NCBI RefSeq assembly: GCF_030695525.1
Contig: NZ_JAUYSS010000061.1
Coordinates: 1 to 64,000 of the forward strand
Direction of reading: 5' to 3'
DNA: 64,000 nucleotides
Source of the DNA: Daejeonella sp.
GTDB lineage: Bacteria; Bacteroidota; Bacteroidia; Sphingobacteriales; Sphingobacteriaceae
A program made the position numbers and the translations under genes. This document shows, in pieces, positions 3,634 to 10,433 of the stretch (position 1 is the stretch's first letter; the number at the start of each line of letters is the position of its first letter). The notes beneath the pieces are model-generated. The model saw only the letters and a list, made by a program, of their open reading frames with translations, had not been told where the DNA came from and did no database searches.

Positions 3634-4030
3634 GGTGTTTGGGGGATGGTGAGAAGGTCGGGGTCTTCGATATAATTACAATAAGTGTTTAAAGAATGGG
3701 GTCGTGGCTTTCGAGATAATGACAATCAATGCTTACAAAATGAGGCTGCCCTTAGCGGGCTTGACCCCAATGTCATTAAGTTAAGGATTACGATCCTGAC
3801 GAATTCAGGATCTCCTCCATTATTAGAAAAATTGCATTGTCATTCTGGCGAAGGCCAGAACCTCCTGCCCTTAACTTAATGACATTTGCCTTGACCCCAT
3901 GTTATTATTTAAGGATTGGGAGGTTCCAGCCTTCGAGGGATGATAAATCGGGAGGTGGGTTCCAGCTTTCGCTGGAATGACAAATTTTAGTGGGAGGTAT
4001 AGGGAGATTCCAGCCTTCGCTGGAATCGTC
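3634..4030. repeat. REP-like palindrome cluster, left of GIY-YIG gene
   Basis: No gene. Contains several versions of a palindrome with core ccagcgaaggctgg: 3843-3860 (ttctggcgaaggccagaa), a decayed copy at 3919-3942, 3960-3977, and 4006-4027 (gattccagccttcgctggaatc). An 18-bp perfect inverted repeat, aatgtcattaagttaagg at 3769-3786 and its complement at 3869-3886, encloses the first palindrome. The last three copies run in the opposite orientation to those on the other side of the nuclease gene. Confidence 0.75.
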
Positions 4031-4035
4031 TCAGG

Positions 4036-4338
4036 TTACTTACTTCTTTTGATGAACCAATCCGCGGCAAGATCATGCCAATCTGGGTTATGTTTTTCAA
4101 TCAGATTATTTTTCCATGATCGTTGCCAGGTCTTTAATTGTTTTTCTCTGGCGATGGCTAAGTTCACGTCAGTAAACTTTTCAAACCACACCAGTTTAGT
4201 ACAATTATACTTACTCGTGAATCCATAAACGAGCTTCCGTTTATGCTCGTATACTCTTCTGCGGATATTGTTAGTAAAACCGATGTACAAAACATTATGA
4301 TAAGTATTTGTAAGCATGTAAACATAATATTCCCTCAT
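4036..4338 (-). CDS. GIY-YIG single-domain nuclease
   Basis: A 100-residue protein that is almost entirely a GIY-YIG nuclease fold: first motif as YYVYMLTNT near the N terminus, second as VLYIGFTNNIRRRVYEHK, with the conserved Arg after YIG and a Glu in AREKQLKTW that would bind metal. It resembles the small stand-alone UPF0213/YhbQ-like group and not homing enzymes with added DNA-binding domains. The start is set at the Met of MREYYVYML because a longer reading adds only five unconserved residues. The gene is embedded on both sides in REP-like palindromes in inverted orientation, suggesting it may act on or spread with them. Cellular role unknown. Confidence 0.85.
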   Translation of the reverse strand: MREYYVYMLTNTYHNVLYIGFTNNIRRRVYEHKRKLVYGFTSKYNCTKLVWFEKFTDVNLAIAREKQLKTWQRSWKNNLIEKHNPDWHDLAADWFIKRSK

Positions 4339-4353
4339 TCTCCAAAACTGCAA

Positions 4354-4829
4354 TCCCCGAAATACATAAAGTCAAAAAATGAGTAAAAGGTCTACATCAT
4401 TTATCATACGGTTCCGCATTTCGATTCCAGCGAAGGCTGGAATCTCCTGCCTCTAAGCCACACTTGTCATTCCTGCGAAAGCAGGAACCTCCTTACCCTT
4501 AGCAACCATTGTCATCCGATAAAATCGGATCTCGCGAGGGCGAGAAACCCCACAATCCTTCAAACGTAGTCATACAATAAAATCGGTTCGCACGAAGGCT
4601 GTTTCTCCTGAATCCCAACTAACTTTGTCAGAACTACGAATTGTGAACCTCTCCAATACCCCACAAGCAATTTTAATCCAAAGAGCCTAGCCGCACTCTT
4701 AAATAATGACATTGGACTTGACCCGTTACCTCTCTTCATCACCCAGCAATCCATTGTAATATCGGAACTGAACCAAATCGTAACATCATCCTAATGGCAT
4801 CTCAGAGTTAGACCATTTTCAAATTGCCC
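4354..4829. repeat. REP-like palindrome cluster, right of GIY-YIG gene
   Basis: No gene. Holds gattccagcgaaggctggaatc (perfect palindrome, 4423-4444), attcctgcgaaagcaggaac (4469-4488), and a variant hairpin atccgat-aaa-atcggat (4514-4530), each followed by a ctcctgcc or ctccttacc-type tail. Further decayed pieces run to about 4760, including aatgacatt and ttgaccc words also seen at 3760-3900. A 64-codon reading frame here (4560-4754, minus) has no support. Confidence 0.7.
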
Positions 4830-5324
4830 CTATTTCCTAAACCTCTGATACACCCAGCCAAGCAATAATACTGCCCCCACAACCACCCAAACCTGCCAAC
4901 CATTAAACCTGTCCTTTTCAACAGATTTAGAATTGTTGATCTGCCTGGACGCCAGCTTTCTGATCATCTTAGATCTTGTCTCTTTACCTTCGGAAACCAT
5001 AAGCACAGTGCTATCACTTACCCGGTTTAGCTGCCTGATTGAACCTATAATCTCTACCTTAGCTGCCTTGCCAATAAAACCCCTTTCCACAGAAAATTGA
5101 AAACTGTCCCTCGGGAAAATCGTAATCTGATAAACCTGCCCGATAGAGTCCCTGACAAAGCGGGCATGGGAGAAATGTATAGTTTCCTGCTCCCGGATCA
5201 GCGTATCTGTTTGTTCAAGCCGTGTGAGCTGATTCAGCTGGCGGTTTGAAAATTTAGTTGTGCGGCATGCGTACTGGACAGACATGATTAATATCATGCC
5301 CGCCAGTAAAATGAAGTTTTTCAT
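4830..5324 (-). CDS. U-spanin-like protein (N-terminal lipobox-like signal, C-terminal membrane anchor)
   Basis: A 164-residue protein not recognised by name. It has a hydrophobic N-terminal signal ending in a Cys at residue 20 (MSVQYAC, a loose lipobox with Gln at -3), a polar charged middle of about 115 residues, and one C-terminal membrane helix (about 142-160, WVVVGAVLLLGWVY) followed by a short basic tail QRFRK. Lipoprotein signal plus C-terminal helix is the topology of phage unimolecular spanins, which fuse inner and outer membranes in lysis. It is the last gene of a minus-strand cassette after a CHAP endolysin-like and a holin-like gene, which fits. Function is inferred from topology and context, not from sequence identity. 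Confidence 0.55.
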   Translation of the reverse strand: MKNFILLAGMILIMSVQYACRTTKFSNRQLNQLTRLEQTDTLIREQETIHFSHARFVRDSIGQVYQITIFPRDSFQFSVERGFIGKAAKVEIIGSIRQLNRVSDSTVLMVSEGKETRSKMIRKLASRQINNSKSVEKDRFNGWQVWVVVGAVLLLGWVYQRFRK

Positions 5325-5446
5325 AAGGATACAATTAGTTTTTTAATGCTTATCTGATTATTGTCTCGCCTGCATATGCCGTATCAGACACCTATCCATT
5401 TCCGACCTTGCCGGAAATGTGACCGCTTATTCCTTTTATTAGTGTT

Positions 5447-5736
5447 CCCATGATCTTTCTTTTTTAATAATTGATATAGCGTGCCACCCGGTAAATACTC
5501 CTGACAGGGCGCCGTTTGCGGTAGACCCCATCGCCTTCAGGGTTGCCGGATATATTTGTGTTGCCCTCTACGGTAATCAGCCAGGTTCCATCCCATGATC
5601 TTTCTTTTTTAATAATTGATATAGCGCGCCACCCGGTAAATGCTCCTGACGGGGCGCCGTTTGCGGTAGACCCCATCGCCTTCAGGGTGGCCGGATGTAT
5701 TAGTGTTGCCCTCAACGGTGATCAGCCAGGTTCCAT
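5447..5736. repeat. 145-bp tandem duplication at the 3' end of the CHAP gene
   Basis: Two head-to-tail copies, 5447-5591 and 5592-5736, about 90 percent alike with a constant offset of 145 bases (for example ggttgccgga at 5541 and ggtggccgga at 5686). A partial third start (ccca at 5737) marks the original junction. Because 145 is not a multiple of three, the second reading of the C terminus falls outside the CHAP frame. Confidence 0.9.
5464..5597 (-). pseudogene. Orphan duplicate of the CHAP protein C terminus
   Basis: This piece re-encodes the last 44 or so residues of the upstream CHAP protein (SWDGTWLITVEGNTNISG through VARYINY) but lies after that gene's stop codon and lacks the catalytic part. 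It arose from the 145-bp duplication. An accidental frame through both copies gives 83 codons starting inside the real gene; I do not regard that as a separate gene. Confidence 0.75.
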
Positions 5737-6472
5737 CCCATGAATCGATAAATCCCACATGAGCAATCCTTTTTTTCTCAGGGAAATAGATGCCGAAGAC
5801 GTCGCCGGTAGTAGGGGTTATCTGTTGTCTGTTACCTGTTGTCTGTCTGGTCGGATAGGTATATGGTACGTGTCCTTGTTCCTTGCTCCATGCTCTTTGT
5901 TCAGATACAGGGCTTTCCGCTTTTATCTTTCCGCTTTCAGCCCTTAGCCAATTGTTACCTGTTATCTGTCTGGTTGGATAGGCACTATCGGTTTCTAATA
6001 CGCTTGGTGGGCGTCTTGGTTCCTGGTTCTTGGTTCCTGATTCTCTACTCCAAATTACTCTTGAAGCAGTAAATAAAGATGGTGACCACCCCGTCTGCGG
6101 ATTAGCAACCCCCGCTTTCCCGAAGACCCAGCACACGAATGCTGCACACCAGGGATTACCTTTCGTAAGGTTTACATAGTGTAGATACTTCTCCACTTCC
6201 GGTCCGCGATTTAATCCAGATTCCCGTACCCCGATCTGTGAATCATAAACCTGTTTAACTCTTGCGATGATATCAGAATGATCCTCTTTGAATATTTTGT
6301 TCAGGGAATATCCTCCAAGGCCTTGCCCTAAATTATTCTGGATTCTTGCCTGGCCAGCAGGCAGGATGATTTCTGGATACAGGCTCTCCTTTATAGAATA
6401 GCTATCAATATCAAAATGAATGCAAATAAAAGTGAGCAGTAAAAGCCAAGAAAGATGATTACTTTTTGCCAT
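5609..6472 (-). CDS. CHAP/TIGR02594-type amidase, endolysin-like
   Basis: A 287-residue protein with an N-terminal hydrophobic segment (residues 8-20) and a CHAP-like NlpC/P60 fold. The nucleophile is Cys109 in GNPWCAAFVCW, the base is His238 in KRIAHVGF, and a polar residue follows in VEGN near 254. These enzymes cleave peptidoglycan peptide bonds. Between Cys and His about 80 residues (142-222) of low-complexity, charge-rich sequence are inserted, with two copies of a YPTRQTTGN-like word, while flanking domain sequence looks intact. The start codon lies inside the upstream membrane-protein gene (82-base overlap), and no later Met is available. The 3' end is duplicated downstream. Probable endolysin of a lysis-like cassette. 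Confidence 0.75.
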   Translation of the reverse strand: MAKSNHLSWLLLLTFICIHFDIDSYSIKESLYPEIILPAGQARIQNNLGQGLGGYSLNKIFKEDHSDIIARVKQVYDSQIGVRESGLNRGPEVEKYLHYVNLTKGNPWCAAFVCWVFGKAGVANPQTGWSPSLFTASRVIWSRESGTKNQEPRRPPSVLETDSAYPTRQITGNNWLRAESGKIKAESPVSEQRAWSKEQGHVPYTYPTRQTTGNRQQITPTTGDVFGIYFPEKKRIAHVGFIDSWDGTWLITVEGNTNTSGHPEGDGVYRKRRPVRSIYRVARYINY

Positions 6473-6756
6473 GACTGTAAGGATTTAAAATTGGTTTCAA
6501 AATGAAATTCAGAATAAGTGGCAAACAATGGCCAGATAGTCTTGATAAGCCACCAGGTGCTCAGCTTGAAAATTAGCATCGCCAATACGGCCATTAAAAT
6601 TGCGCTTAATGCACCCGGGTCTATTGGAGCGGCACTTTCATCAAAGCTGCGGACTAACTGTGGGAAAATGGCAAACAGGAGTAAAACAAGCCCAATGCCC
6701 AGGTATTCTTTTCTCAGGATCTGACCTGCAGAAAATATTGATTTTAAATATTCCAT
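6391..6756 (-). CDS. Holin-like three-helix membrane protein
   Basis: A 121-residue protein, not identified by family. Three hydrophobic segments are visible: about 18-36 (YLGIGLVLLLFAIFPQLV), 49-73 (ALSAILMAVLAMLIFKLSTWWL) and 97-120 (QKVIIFLGFYCSLLFAFILILIAIL). Size, short loops and the position just ahead of a CHAP peptidase are those of a class I holin. Its last 82 bases overlap the start of the CHAP gene in another frame, and both frames encode hydrophobic helices there. It follows the DUF6266 gene by 56 bases. Alternative reading: a generic small membrane protein of unknown role. Confidence 0.6.
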   Translation of the reverse strand: MEYLKSIFSAGQILRKEYLGIGLVLLLFAIFPQLVRSFDESAAPIDPGALSAILMAVLAMLIFKLSTWWLIKTIWPLFATYSEFHFETNFKSLQSWQKVIIFLGFYCSLLFAFILILIAIL

Positions 6757-6812
6757 GATTTTTAATTTTGATTTTAAATACTGCGGCGGTTTTACCCGCC
6801 GCAGTTCTTTTG

Positions 6813-7454
6813 TTAAACAATCACGACTTCACCCGCGAAATAGCTTTCGGAGATCTTCTTCTCACCTCTATCAGTGAAAAAGTAATAGATAACCAGATTC
6901 TGACCAATCATATTCTCTTCCATTGTAATCAGCATTTCTCCTTCAGATCGCAGAACATTGTCCAGACCATGGATGTAAATATTGGTTTCAGGTTCATAGA
7001 TCAAAACCGTGATTACATCATCCGCAAATGCATTGTATTTATTGGTCTGTGGAGTCCAGCTTACCTTCAAAATGCCTCCACCCTCTGCCGAAGCAGACCC
7101 TTTTGCTATCGCAAGTGGACCGTAGGCAAGTTTGACAGCTGCATAATCGACGGCATAGTCCGGATAATCTCCCAAAATTGCCTGAGCCAGCACCTGTTTG
7201 AGTGCCATATTAAAACCCATTGCCCTTCCTTCGCGGAGACTGTTACAAGTAACATTCAGCAGATCTTTGATAGGCTTTAAGAATTTTACAGCCACTGAAA
7301 ACTTTGCCCGCTGTTCAATCTGGCCTTGAGTAGAAGGTTTGTTGCTTTTCTTTGGTCGCCCTTTGATGTATTCGACCCCTTTCCAACTGCTTCCAATCAC
7401 ACTCCCGGCCTTGCCGGAGAAGCCACCATTGGCTCCTTGTTTTATTCTTCCCAT
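6813..7454 (-). CDS. DUF6266 family protein
   Basis: A 213-residue protein with the characteristic DUF6266 N terminus (MGRIKQGANGGFSGKAGSVIG, then SWKGVEYIKGRPKKSNKP). No signal peptide or membrane helix. The N-terminal third is basic and glycine rich; the remainder alternates beta-prone and charged stretches, and the segment SWTPQTNKYNAFADD resembles a fibronectin-like or small beta domain. The family is common in Sphingobacteriia but has no known function. It is first in a cassette with holin-, endolysin- and u-spanin-like genes and sits 67 or so bases downstream of a near-consensus promoter, so it is presumably made with the lysis genes, perhaps as the released or structural product (inference). 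Confidence 0.8.
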   Translation of the reverse strand: MGRIKQGANGGFSGKAGSVIGSSWKGVEYIKGRPKKSNKPSTQGQIEQRAKFSVAVKFLKPIKDLLNVTCNSLREGRAMGFNMALKQVLAQAILGDYPDYAVDYAAVKLAYGPLAIAKGSASAEGGGILKVSWTPQTNKYNAFADDVITVLIYEPETNIYIHGLDNVLRSEGEMLITMEENMIGQNLVIYYFFTDRGEKKISESYFAGEVVIV

Positions 7455-7527
7455 AATGTTTAAATTTTAAATGTTTAAAAATTAATTAATTAGGATTTGC
7501 ATCTACCGGTATAGCTGATATCCGGGT

Positions 7528-7559
7528 CAAACGTAGATGTGAATTCCAGATTCCCCAAA
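7528..7559 (-). promoter_or_regulatory. Promoter of the DUF6266/lysis-like cassette
   Basis: On the minus strand TTTG (7559-7556), a 20-base spacer, then TACGTTTG (7535-7528), a full match to the Bacteroidota -33/-7 consensus TTTG and TAnnTTTG. Predicted start of transcription is near 7521, leaving a leader of about 67 bases before the DUF6266 start. Confidence 0.75.
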
Positions 7560-7965
7560 AAATGACCCGAATTGACTAGTAAGTGACATCTGAGCGATAT
7601 TTGAGTGACATGTGTAGGAATAAGTCCTTAGTTTGTTATCCCGATTTATGTATCTGAATATTGACTGACTAATCCCAGAGCAGTATTGTGTTCGGCAGAT
7701 TTTTGCTATTCGTTTACATCCCGGGCTTTGCCAGCCATACTAATGTCGAACTTGTGTCAAACTTGAGACAGGCATTTCAAGAGCCTGAGACGAACACCAC
7801 CCGAACCGGACTCGAACCGGACTCGAGCATGACCCGAACGCCACTCGAACACGACTCGAACAGAAGGGCAGTTTTCCCGAAGGATTGGATCGATTTCCCG
7901 AACGCGACTCGAATAAAGGAGACTTTTCTCGAACAAGACAGTTTATCGGAAAGATTAGGTTAACC
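7560..7965. repeat. Spacer with an 11-bp tandem array (core at 7788-7864)
   Basis: Seven consecutive 11-bp units of the form a-c-y-c-g-a-a-c plus three variable bases lie at 7788-7864 (for example actcgaaccgg at 7810 and actcgaacacg at 7843). Weaker units continue to about 7940. The period equals one helical turn and is not a multiple of three, so the frame running through it (7688-7963, GTG start) shows no protein repeat and is not called as a gene. Before it, gagtgacat-like words recur at about 7580-7612. Could be a protein-binding array; function unknown. Confidence 0.7.
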
Positions 7966-8159
7966 TGAGCTCGACTTAATATTTAAAAAACCGCATACCT
8001 GCCTGCCGGCAGGGAAACATAGTATTTTATAGCTTCTAACCTACATTTTAGACACAGATAGCCTTGAAGCTTCGCTTCAATCTATGTTTCCTTTAAAGCA
8101 TAATAAATTCAATCTATGTGGTTAAATCTTAATCTTTAGATAGTTTAATATCGAACTTA
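7966..8159. repeat. MITE-like dispersed repeat, copy 2
   Basis: A 194-bp copy of the element at 572-802, same orientation, starting tgagctcgac and ending atcgaactta. It is flanked by a 9-bp direct repeat ttaggttaa (7955-7963 and 8162-8170), which looks like a target-site duplication. Inner sequence contains the ctgcctgccggcag hairpin and a second inverted pair around gaagcttcgcttc. No coding capacity. Confidence 0.7.
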
Positions 8160-8193
8160 TGTTAGGTTAAATATTTGCCAGAGGGAATCCTCT

Positions 8194-8505
8194 TTACTTC
8201 AGGAAATAATTCCTTAGAGCCTCAATCTGGGAAAGGTCAAACCAGTTTTGTTTTCCAATACGGATAGGGGTAAATATCTCTGATTTAATATTCCGGGATA
8301 AGGTGCTCTTGCTGAAATTGAGTATTTCCCTGACTTGGTTTGAATTGATGAGCTGTCCAAGGGTTTCAATATCAAGTTTTGATTTTCTCAGCTTTTCTGT
8401 AGGATGAAAATCAGCAGTTCCGCAGCCCCGAATTTCCTGCAGCATTTCCTCATTCAGCTCCACGAGCCGGTCGATTGACTTGATGAGGTGATCCAGTTTG
8501 TTCAC
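8194..8505 (-). CDS. Helix-turn-helix (excisionase/MerR-like) protein
   Basis: A 103-residue protein with a short N-terminal helical segment (IDRLVELNEEMLQEI, about 11-25) and a C-terminal winged HTH (about 50-100: QLINSNQVREILNFSKSTLSRNIK, then a wing FTPIRIGKQNWFDLSQIEALRNYF). This is the arrangement of HTH_17/excisionase-like DNA-binding proteins common on Bacteroidota mobile elements. It sits alone between a MITE-like repeat and a membrane-anchored XRE regulator, with no integrase nearby. DNA binding is confident; target and role are unknown. Confidence 0.75.
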   Translation of the reverse strand: MNKLDHLIKSIDRLVELNEEMLQEIRGCGTADFHPTEKLRKSKLDIETLGQLINSNQVREILNFSKSTLSRNIKSEIFTPIRIGKQNWFDLSQIEALRNYFLK

Positions 8506-8931
8506 GATTTGAGAATTTGCTGATATAAAATTGCACTGAAAGCTCTGAAAATGTTATTCATTGCAGTAATAATTCATCAAAATGGAGAAATAAAAAAATA
8601 GTCCGGAATTGCTGAGAAGATAATTTTCGATCAAAGAAATTTCATGACCAGCAAGCCCAATAGATCTGCAAAAGCAAGTATTCAGGGCTCACAATAATTA
8701 TCAGGCCTTGTTGTGGATTTATTTCTGCTTTGGGGATTTATTTAAAGACAGGGAAAAACCTCGTTTTCGGGCTCATTGCATTGATTTTTGAATTTTAAGG
8801 AGGGATCAGCTATAGGATTGGGTATTGCAGAAGGATATCTGTTTAATTATTTTTAATATACAAAACGCTGTGCTTATGTGAATTAAAAATTAAAAATTAA
8901 ACATCTATCATCTACCCCAAAACCCCAAACT
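8506..8931. other. AT-rich divergent spacer, nothing recognised
   Basis: This 426-bp gap separates the two oppositely transcribed HTH genes and should contain both promoters. I found no TAnnTTTG box with a matching TTTG, no hairpin terminator and no open frame. A short direct repeat attaaaa occurs just before the XRE gene (8883-8900). Confidence 0.5.
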
Positions 8932-9706: not shown

Positions 9707-9898
9707 ATGAAATGTTCAGAACTACTACGGTTGTTAAAGAAAGCGGGTTGGATCGTTATTCGAGAAGGTAAAGGCAGTCACAAAATATTATCACATCCGG
9801 ATAAACCTGACAATATTATCACATTTCCTGATCATGGATCGGATGAAATGTCTAAAGGTTTAGCTGAGAAGTTTAAAAAACAAGCAGGACTAAAATAA
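9707..9898 (+). CDS. hicA: HicA-like type II toxin (mRNA interferase)
   Basis: A 63-residue double-stranded-RNA-binding-fold toxin. Visible family features are the N-terminal MKCSELLRLLKKAGW helix, the catalytic His25 in REGKGSHKIL, and the C-terminal FPDHGSDEMSKGLAEKFKKQAGL that packs on the sheet. HicA cleaves mRNA and tmRNA independently of ribosomes when not bound by HicB. It lies 136 bases upstream of the antitoxin, wider than the usual near-contact, behind a full-consensus promoter. Length is normal for the family. Confidence 0.9.
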   Translation: MKCSELLRLLKKAGWIVIREGKGSHKILSHPDKPDNIITFPDHGSDEMSKGLAEKFKKQAGLK

Positions 9899-9925
9899 AC
9901 TCTGCTATTAAAAATAATCACAGGT

Positions 9926-9947
9926 TCTACTTACTGGTGAAAGTAGA
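9926..9947. promoter_or_regulatory. Inverted repeat between hicA and hicB
   Basis: tctactt (9926-9932) and aagtaga (9941-9947) form a 7-bp inverted repeat with an 8-base gap in the unusually long intercistronic region. It could be an operator for the HTH of HicB or an RNA hairpin that sets toxin/antitoxin ratio. No independent evidence. Confidence 0.3.
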
Positions 9948-10034
9948 CACGGCATCCCGGTGATCAGGGATTGAACTCATGCTTATACAAACAAAGTGTA
10001 AAGCATACAATCAGCCACAAATTTTGGCACAGAC

Positions 10035-10433
10035 ATGGCAGGCAAGATCGTTTTCACAGTTGAAAAGACCTCAACAGGCTTTTCAGCATTCGCTCAAGAT
10101 TTCGAAACTTATCCGGTAGGTACAACTGGCAATACCTTTACAGAACTGAAGGAAAATATTGTTGATGCCTTAAATTTACACAACGAACATCGAGGGTTAA
10201 AGATCGTAACTGAAGATGAGGTGTCAATTCAAGTTGATATCCCGCAATTCTTTCAATATTATAGTATAATAAATGCAAAAGCATTAAGTGAAAGAGTTGG
10301 CATTAACCCCTCCGTCCTTTCAATGTATGTAAATGGCCATAGAAAACCATCACCAAAGCAAGTCGAAAAGATTTTAACAGGAATTAGGGAAATTGGCAAA
10401 GAATTGTCAAGCCTTGACATGGTTGACGCTTAA
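10035..10433 (+). CDS. hicB: HicB-like antitoxin with C-terminal HTH
   Basis: A 132-residue antitoxin. The N-terminal half is the degenerate RNase H-like HicB fold (IVFTVEKTSTGFSAFAQDFETYPVGTTGNTFTELKENIVDALNL), which masks the toxin; the C-terminal part (about 82-118, AKALSERVGINPSVLSMYVNGHRKPSPKQVEKIL) is an XRE-type HTH for autoregulation. The first half should occupy HicA and the second the promoter ahead of hicA. A short AT-rich spacer with an inverted repeat precedes it. The HTH type matches the longer HicB subfamily. Confidence 0.88.
   Translation: MAGKIVFTVEKTSTGFSAFAQDFETYPVGTTGNTFTELKENIVDALNLHNEHRGLKIVTEDEVSIQVDIPQFFQYYSIINAKALSERVGINPSVLSMYVNGHRKPSPKQVEKILTGIREIGKELSSLDMVDA

Follow-up and report, generated by a model that had tools for sequence, protein, structure and literature searches.

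The window analysed here, a 64,000-nucleotide stretch of DNA from Daejeonella sp. (NZ_JAUYSS010000061.1), is the start of a contig in a 4.2-Mb genome of 73 contigs. It carries an operon of four minus-strand open reading frames (ORFs) in which a gene for a DUF6266 protein is joined to a holin candidate, a CHAP endolysin and a lipoprotein resembling unimolecular spanins (u-spanins). A first-pass annotation, made from the sequence alone, had described these genes as running in one direction behind a promoter, and all four are present where it put them, between 4830 and 7454. The last three genes are, by sequence kinship, the lysis cassette of a phage. The unit is wider than first described: it also includes a gene for a candidate regulator, a palindrome resembling an operator and, in relatives, a further family of candidate cargo proteins (Table 1).

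The lysis genes and the DUF6266 protein

The first gene product matches PF19781 at 130.9 bits against a cut-off of 23.4. Its AlphaFold2 model (mean predicted local distance difference test score, pLDDT, 92.5) has an N-terminal half made of a hairpin and two helices, followed by an FN3-like domain at residues 113–213 (best Z 10.9, root-mean-square deviation 1.9 over 90 residues), which is the part that matches to solved structures chiefly covered. A PDB sequence search returned no match at E≤1, and DUF6266 by name has no match in the literature searched. We rejected DUF6266 as a phage protein, as a tblastn search of 50,697 phage records was empty at E≤0.1; 80 viral contigs gave none at 1e-3 and one weak antisense match (L182, E 0.0028) that we take as chance. 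A tblastn search of 72,556 plasmid records likewise found no match at 1e-3.

The second product is a membrane protein with three hydropathy segments, in keeping with the three helices described for it. Those 80 contigs, the best of 428 IMG/VR contigs that carry the CHAP family, place a small membrane protein of the same kind just upstream of the endolysin gene in 41 cases (E≤1e-3, near copies included). The third product had been called a CHAP-type amidase with Cys109 and His238, and both residues are invariant in an 18-row alignment. It matches PHROG endolysins (E 4e-17), the Pfam CHAP match (E 4.3e-4) lies under the Pfam cut-off, and a PDB sequence search gave one weak match (0.58). By eye, the CHAP proteins of phages and of chromosomal cassettes alike begin with a hydrophobic segment. 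The holin-candidate and CHAP genes of the window overlap by 82 nt. The loop between the catalytic blocks (about 5825–6050 in the window; also L010, L047, L048 and L089) is repeat-like and of very different length among relatives, and at one further locus (L123, 8883–10367) the holin and CHAP genes are separated by an ORF that looks transposase-like by eye.

By the criteria of PMC6139136, u-spanins are recognised by a lipoprotein signal and a C-terminal membrane helix; a beta-rich periplasmic domain is a further feature of the class. The 164-residue product of the last gene has a predicted N-terminal signal ending in Cys20, a residue conserved in every row of two alignments (14 and 20 rows), and a C-terminal hydrophobic helix, seen in the hydropathy profile and at residues 143–163 of a structural model. 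That model, whose mean pLDDT is only 64.7, also contains strands within residues 53–95 and long helices, and no Cys follows Cys20. By the features given in that paper, the layout resembles that of the u-spanin gp11 of phage T1, which likewise combines an N-terminal lipoprotein signal with a membrane helix at the C-terminus and has no Cys past the lipobox; the modelled strands in between would be a further likeness. The first-pass annotation had judged the lipobox imperfect. The Gln at −3 is real, and among 82 relatives it occurs in the window and L060 only; Leu, Val or Ile stands at −3 in 51 of the 82 (the test itself asked for a small residue at −1). The window's box, QYAC, deviates from consensus and is not disqualifying, because the unusual lipobox AWAC is reported to be functional in gp11 (PMC6139136). 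By sequence the protein is a putative u-spanin.

In the closest copy of the operon, L060/L101 of Sphingobacteriales bacterium 16-39-50, the genes follow one another as in the window, and a second DUF6266 gene stands intact between those for CHAP and the lipoprotein. Of this gene the window keeps the first and last residues, the rest having gone by internal deletion. At another locus (L050, 7081–8606), the stretch from the holin gene to a second DUF6266 gene holds short ORFs that are almost identical to one another, partly masked and spaced at about 240 bp, resembling a tandem expansion.

Table 1. Features of the operon and its control region (positions in the window)
Feature	Position	Strand	Basis or remark
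u-spanin-like lipoprotein, 164 aa	4830-5324	-	lipobox-like SVQYAC, mid strands, C-terminal helix
Remnant of second DUF6266 gene	5350-5451	-	comparison with intact second gene of L060 (7697-8332)
145-bp tandem duplication of CHAP 3' end	5446-5735	-	two copies, 94% identical, 8 of 145 positions differ
CHAP endolysin, 287 aa, signal-like N-terminus	5609-6472	-	PHROG, Pfam, alignment
Holin candidate, 121 aa, three-helix membrane protein	6391-6756	-	hydropathy; position beside CHAP in viral contigs
DUF6266 protein, 213 aa, candidate cargo	6813-7454	-	PF19781, E 5.8e-38
TACCGGTA palindrome, operator-like	7504-7511		just 3' of the -7 element
Bacteroidota-type promoter, TTTG ... TACGTTTG	7528-7559	-	sequence; same element in L060
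HTH_17-like small DNA-binding protein, candidate regulator	8194-8505	-	103 aa; 83 aa from internal start

Recurrence in Sphingobacteriaceae and kinship with phages

We mapped loci in related genomes by simple ORF calling and hydropathy. DUF6266 is present in 18 of 60 relatives, and holin and/or CHAP genes adjoin it at 18 of 61 mapped loci, a count that leaves out two contig-edge fragments (L097 and L098). The source genome itself has nine DUF6266 matches and five holin-candidate matches. Across the family, 38 of 151 genomes surveyed have the holin candidate, and 68 of 151 have DUF6266. Genomic co-occurrence had been proposed as a check: if the holin and DUF6266 draws are taken as the same genomes, as their labels suggest, 36 of the 38 holin-bearing genomes also have DUF6266 (odds ratio 46; Fisher p ~1e-13 without a correction for kinship). 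Carriers of the holin candidate (25 loci) include Daejeonella, Pedobacter, Mucilaginibacter, Olivibacter and other Sphingobacteriaceae. Among the strains with a cassette are Pedobacter insulae DSM 18684 and Daejeonella lutea DSM 22385. A class-wide draw of 247 genomes gave a holin match in three, one of them outside the family and beside a gene that looks capsid-like by eye.

When 58 further holin loci were chosen regardless of DUF6266, 51 proved to carry DUF6266 or one of two other genes, V189 and FN210. V189 cross-matches DUF6266 members and is therefore counted as a DUF6266 relative. FN210 is an FN3-tipped family of about 210 residues, with fn3 matches that range from weak to clear (the best at 5.1e-8, and one protein of six passing the Pfam threshold). 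We rejected it as a distant DUF6266, since hhalign gave a probability of 0.1% for an FN210 alignment of 21 rows, a few of them unrelated ORFs; a profile made afterwards contains 17 FN210 rows. We call these proteins cargo mainly because the same cassette slots are occupied by two families that show no detectable kinship. None shows an obvious N-terminal signal peptide by eye, and they occupy several positions in their operons, co-encoded DUF6266 usually coming first. The holin loci without such cargo are L210 (at a contig edge), L214, L223, L236, L240 (a DUF6266 fragment and no CHAP), L241 (apparently identical to viral L135, including the start of the spanin gene) and L260, whose 252-residue protein has an N-terminal pattern similar by eye and no Pfam match at 0.1. 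Overall, 69 of 77 holin matches are cargo-linked, including 18 of the 19 earlier loci (the miss is L120).

One relative, G061, has eleven holin matches, its cassettes (L233, L251, L253, L256, L258, L259, L261 and L263–L266) carrying an FN210 gene in ten cases and DUF6266 in one. DUF6266 also has a second downstream partner, DUF5675, which takes the place of the lysis cassette at L058 (6228–6710) and L064 (1741–2280), both by Pfam, and at L059, L095 and L096 (by eye); L058 and L059 have the TACCGGTA palindrome upstream.

A tree of the holin candidate and CHAP proteins with 112 rows sets 71 chromosomal cassettes, a mix of loci chosen through DUF6266 and through the holin, against 41 phage or prophage cassettes (39 viral and two prophage; Shimodaira–Hasegawa approximate likelihood-ratio test, SH-aLRT, 98). 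Twelve of the 58 loci are left out of it, being, as far as checked, sequence duplicates or loci without a separate holin or CHAP ORF. A cargo gene is present in 66 of the 71 chromosomal cassettes and in two of the 41 phage or prophage ones, and these two viral matches (L139 and L167) are FN210-profile matches inside long, 612-residue proteins near the cassette. FN210 and DUF6266 cassettes interleave on the tree, with five changes of the FN210 label, four of them forced by starred branches. In a smaller tree the starred set of 25 rows comprises 24 DUF6266 rows and L113 (support 99/93); an approximately unbiased test on that tree rejected a single clade for 25 'DUF6266' rows that included the mislabelled viral L182, and we do not use this result. 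Solitary DUF6266 genes fall largely apart, 28 of 36 rows forming one separate branch of the DUF6266 family (SH-aLRT 85).

Gene architecture is shared across the two sides. The start codon that gives an 82-nt overlap of holin and CHAP genes occurs in 29 of 49 DUF6266 rows, 16 of 17 FN210 rows, six of seven other rows and 16 of 39 viral rows; by the start-codon rule the other viral rows mostly overlap by 70 to 115 nt, and three have no overlap. Downstream of CHAP, a gene with a lipobox and a C-terminal helix is found in 41 of 49, 16 of 17, three of seven and 22 of 39 rows of the same classes, seven of the 17 failing viral rows being contig edges. The mirror-image test upstream passes in one of 112 rows, and 54 of 1247 other ORFs pass. 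Ratios of non-synonymous to synonymous substitution rates (dN/dS) between the window and L060 are 0.17 for DUF6266, 0.12 for the holin candidate, 0.28 for CHAP and 0.33 for the helix-turn-helix (HTH) gene discussed below; other pairs range from 0.03 to 0.35, with two saturated pairs giving no value. These sequence comparisons support purifying selection on most cassette genes.

The cassettes that carry DUF6266 lie outside recognisable phages. In the window no terminase, portal, capsid or tail description appears among the PHROG families listed (25 of the 39 matched) for the 44 other ORFs, in agreement with the claim that no other phage genes are near. Around the 71 chromosomal loci, five of 521 flanking ORFs of at least 120 residues match ORFs of the viral reference (83 stretches around CHAP or holin genes, rather than whole phages), and these five fall in three loci. 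The same comparison recovered 8 of 15 ORFs at the prophage locus L114 and 11 of 14 at L106, a member of the viral set. Listed families and flanks together show no head, tail, packaging or integration genes of a prophage nearby. Nor was a cassette with DUF6266 seen inside a full prophage among relatives, an arrangement that would have told against domestication: phage genes surround only cassettes without DUF6266 (L106, L114, L126–L128 and L241). The viral contig L128, also found inside Mucilaginibacter lappiensis (L106), carries genes of these holin-candidate and CHAP families, ordered as in the chromosomal operons; it differs in that its cassette sits behind tail genes, with a tape-measure-like gene upstream.

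The control region

The promoter reported at 7528–7559 is present and conserved in the sister locus L060. We take its sequence to follow the Bacteroidota promoter consensus; it was absent from the output of a sigma-70 scan. In the 200 bp that precede the first gene, the motif TAnnTTTG occurs in 41 of 71 chromosomal cassettes and one of 41 phage or prophage cassettes, and the exact TACCGGTA palindrome in 25 of 71 and none of 41; in the phage rows the stretch examined lay just before the holin gene, and a promoter could stand further upstream. Among DUF6266 loci the exact palindrome was found within the same distance at 14 of 26 lysis-linked, two of five DUF5675-linked (two of the five being contig-edge loci) and one of 39 solitary genes, which suggests an operator-like candidate site. 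We rejected GTACCGGTAC as a specific site by itself, with nine sites in the genome against six for the reversed control. An array of 11-bp repeats lies at 7781–7861, between the promoter and the HTH gene.

The HTH gene product matches HTH_17 in Pfam (E 0.0051, under the cut-off), the defence-system HTH model mad1 in PADLOC (E 6.2e-6) and, weakly, the excisionase/regulator family phrog_66 (E 6.4e-5). In a profile search that treated all rows alike, relatives of this protein were encoded upstream on the same strand in 49 of 71 chromosomal cassettes and in none of 41 phage or prophage cassettes; the viral row L164 has a match on the opposite strand. Judged by these sequence associations, the HTH protein is a candidate regulator of the cassette. 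Phage cassettes differ from the chromosomal ones in having no upstream HTH gene, no palindrome and no DUF6266.

Two further features flank the operon. A GIY-YIG gene (4036–4353, minus strand) lies inside a perfect pair of 26-nt inverted repeats (4003–4028 and 4422–4447), an arrangement resembling that of a small mobile element. At 9707–10433, some 2 kb away from the cassette, a HicA toxin gene (PF07927) is followed by an HTH-domain gene that looks HicB-like by eye, a probable toxin–antitoxin pair.

A proposed release system and its alternatives

Type 10 secretion systems (T10SS), as PMC13284979 describes them, consist of a phage-derived holin and a peptidoglycan hydrolase, in some cases with spanins, linked to cargo and a regulator; they are known there from Serratia, Yersinia, Salmonella and Clostridioides, and whether they act with or without lysis is disputed. 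The operon resembles Serratia chiWXYZ, the YenTc release genes of Yersinia entomophaga and Salmonella ChiH/ChiP and TtsA in combining lysis genes with candidate cargo and a putative regulator, a likeness in gene content. It differs in phylum, in having one spanin-like protein instead of the pair ChiY and ChiZ, and in pairing the lysis genes with small FN3-tipped proteins rather than chitinases or toxins. Gene order, overlap and the tree point to a phage-derived holin and hydrolase, the direction of descent being the part that we infer. In the literature searched, T10SS combined with 'Sphingobacteri' has no match; combined with 'Bacteroid', matches exist.

We consider it reasonably probable that the operon is a phage lysis cassette that has become a chromosomal operon of Sphingobacteriaceae and serves a lytic, T10SS-like release of its co-encoded proteins, with lysis, regulation and release all predicted from the genes. 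On this account the holin candidate, the CHAP enzyme and the spanin-like lipoprotein of a phage would have come under their own promoter, palindrome and HTH regulator, in an operon that also encodes one or two signal-less proteins (DUF6266, V189 or FN210). Upon induction, perhaps in a fraction of cells, the endolysin would reach the periplasm. Because its N-terminus is hydrophobic, the CHAP enzyme may cross the membrane unaided, in which case the holin would act as trigger. The spanin-like protein would then break or fuse the outer layers, and proteins made from the same transcript would leave the cell. A fuller version, which we hold tentatively and rate a little below an even chance, is a family-specific multi-copy system in which one captured phage module under an HTH switch diversified into paralogous cassettes, swapped its FN3-tipped cargo and uses lysis of a subpopulation as export. 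The first-pass annotation had proposed a domesticated lysis-based release device. What stands of this is that lysis genes of phage kind recur in Sphingobacteriaceae, linked to DUF6266 and with no phage around them; that DUF6266 is released is something we infer.

Several observations weigh against this account. The tie that had been drawn between DUF6266 and lysis neighbours fails at 43 of the 61 mapped loci, which have neither holin nor CHAP gene beside DUF6266, so the family does not need the cassette, and 32 of the 68 DUF6266-bearing genomes in the family survey have no holin match. The 121-residue protein remains a holin candidate by gene position, its best family matches being Holin_SPP1 in Pfam (E 0.062) and phrog_263 in PHROG (E 0.1), neither significant. 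In the window the hydrophobic N-terminal segment of CHAP, visible by eye, falls below the 19-residue hydropathy cut-off. Constraint on the lipoprotein is weak (dN/dS 0.61, window against L060). The exact palindrome is absent from 46 of the 71 chromosomal cassettes, and no HTH gene was detected in place in 22 of them. The holin and CHAP tree was made by a quick method and is unrooted, with chromosomal rows on both sides of the midpoint root, so it does not prove a passage from phage to chromosome. Finally, the window cassette may be decaying, because its second DUF6266 gene is lost.

The same loss, together with the duplicated 3' end of the CHAP gene, might be read as the mark of a decayed prophage whose lysis genes were kept by chance. 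We find this extremely improbable and reject it on the PHROG families listed for the window and on the flank comparison: a similar gene order recurs in many genera, dN/dS is well below 1 for most pairs, the upstream signature is absent from phage copies and viral matches in the flanks are almost nil. Scarcely more credible is an unrecognised particle, built from DUF6266 or FN3 proteins and freed by lysis. FN3-bearing viral and tail proteins do stand among the best BFVD matches, and the two viral contigs with the long FN210-profile protein near the cassette would suit such a particle, but the solved-structure matches were chiefly to the FN3 domain, and neither the PHROG families listed for the window, with no packaging, capsid or tail family, nor the flanks, with their few viral matches, speak for it.

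The HTH protein bears on two other alternatives. Its weak phrog_66 match would suit an excisionase or repressor in a selfish or addictive element with lysis as the toxin part, and the five holin matches of the source genome and eleven of G061 could be copies of such an element. We regard this as quite improbable: no integrase of the cassette was noticed, though no search aimed at integrases was made, and the transposase-like ORF of L123 looks like an insertion into a cassette. The search for terminal repeats covered window positions 4000–8600. The mad1 match of the HTH protein, which may merely reflect a shared HTH type, could instead mark an altruistic-death or anti-phage device in which DUF6266 or FN3 proteins, instead of being cargo, would sense lysis or hold it back. 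The cassettes' own control region would suit such a device, and an inhibitor might be encoded first, as DUF6266 usually is. We nonetheless think this unlikely. For a specific inhibitor of holin or endolysin it would be odd to be swapped for a non-relative and to occupy several operon positions, and DUF6266 also occurs without lysis genes. A PADLOC scan of eight proteins found no match at E≤0.1 for the lysis proteins, DUF6266 or one FN210, and a weak one (0.022, Specificity_I) for one V189.

Release of co-encoded proteins remains the reading that we prefer, and the operons suggest that these bacteria use controlled self-lysis to release small proteins encoded alongside the lysis genes. If this is true, Sphingobacteriaceae would possess the Bacteroidota equivalent of a type 10 secretion system, exporting proteins through the programmed lysis of a subpopulation. 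A version that includes a spanin, exists in many copies and stands apart from phages, in a different phylum, would make it possible to test independently how lysis genes of phages are turned into devices for secretion or death, and the link to the cassette would give a first functional handle on DUF6266.

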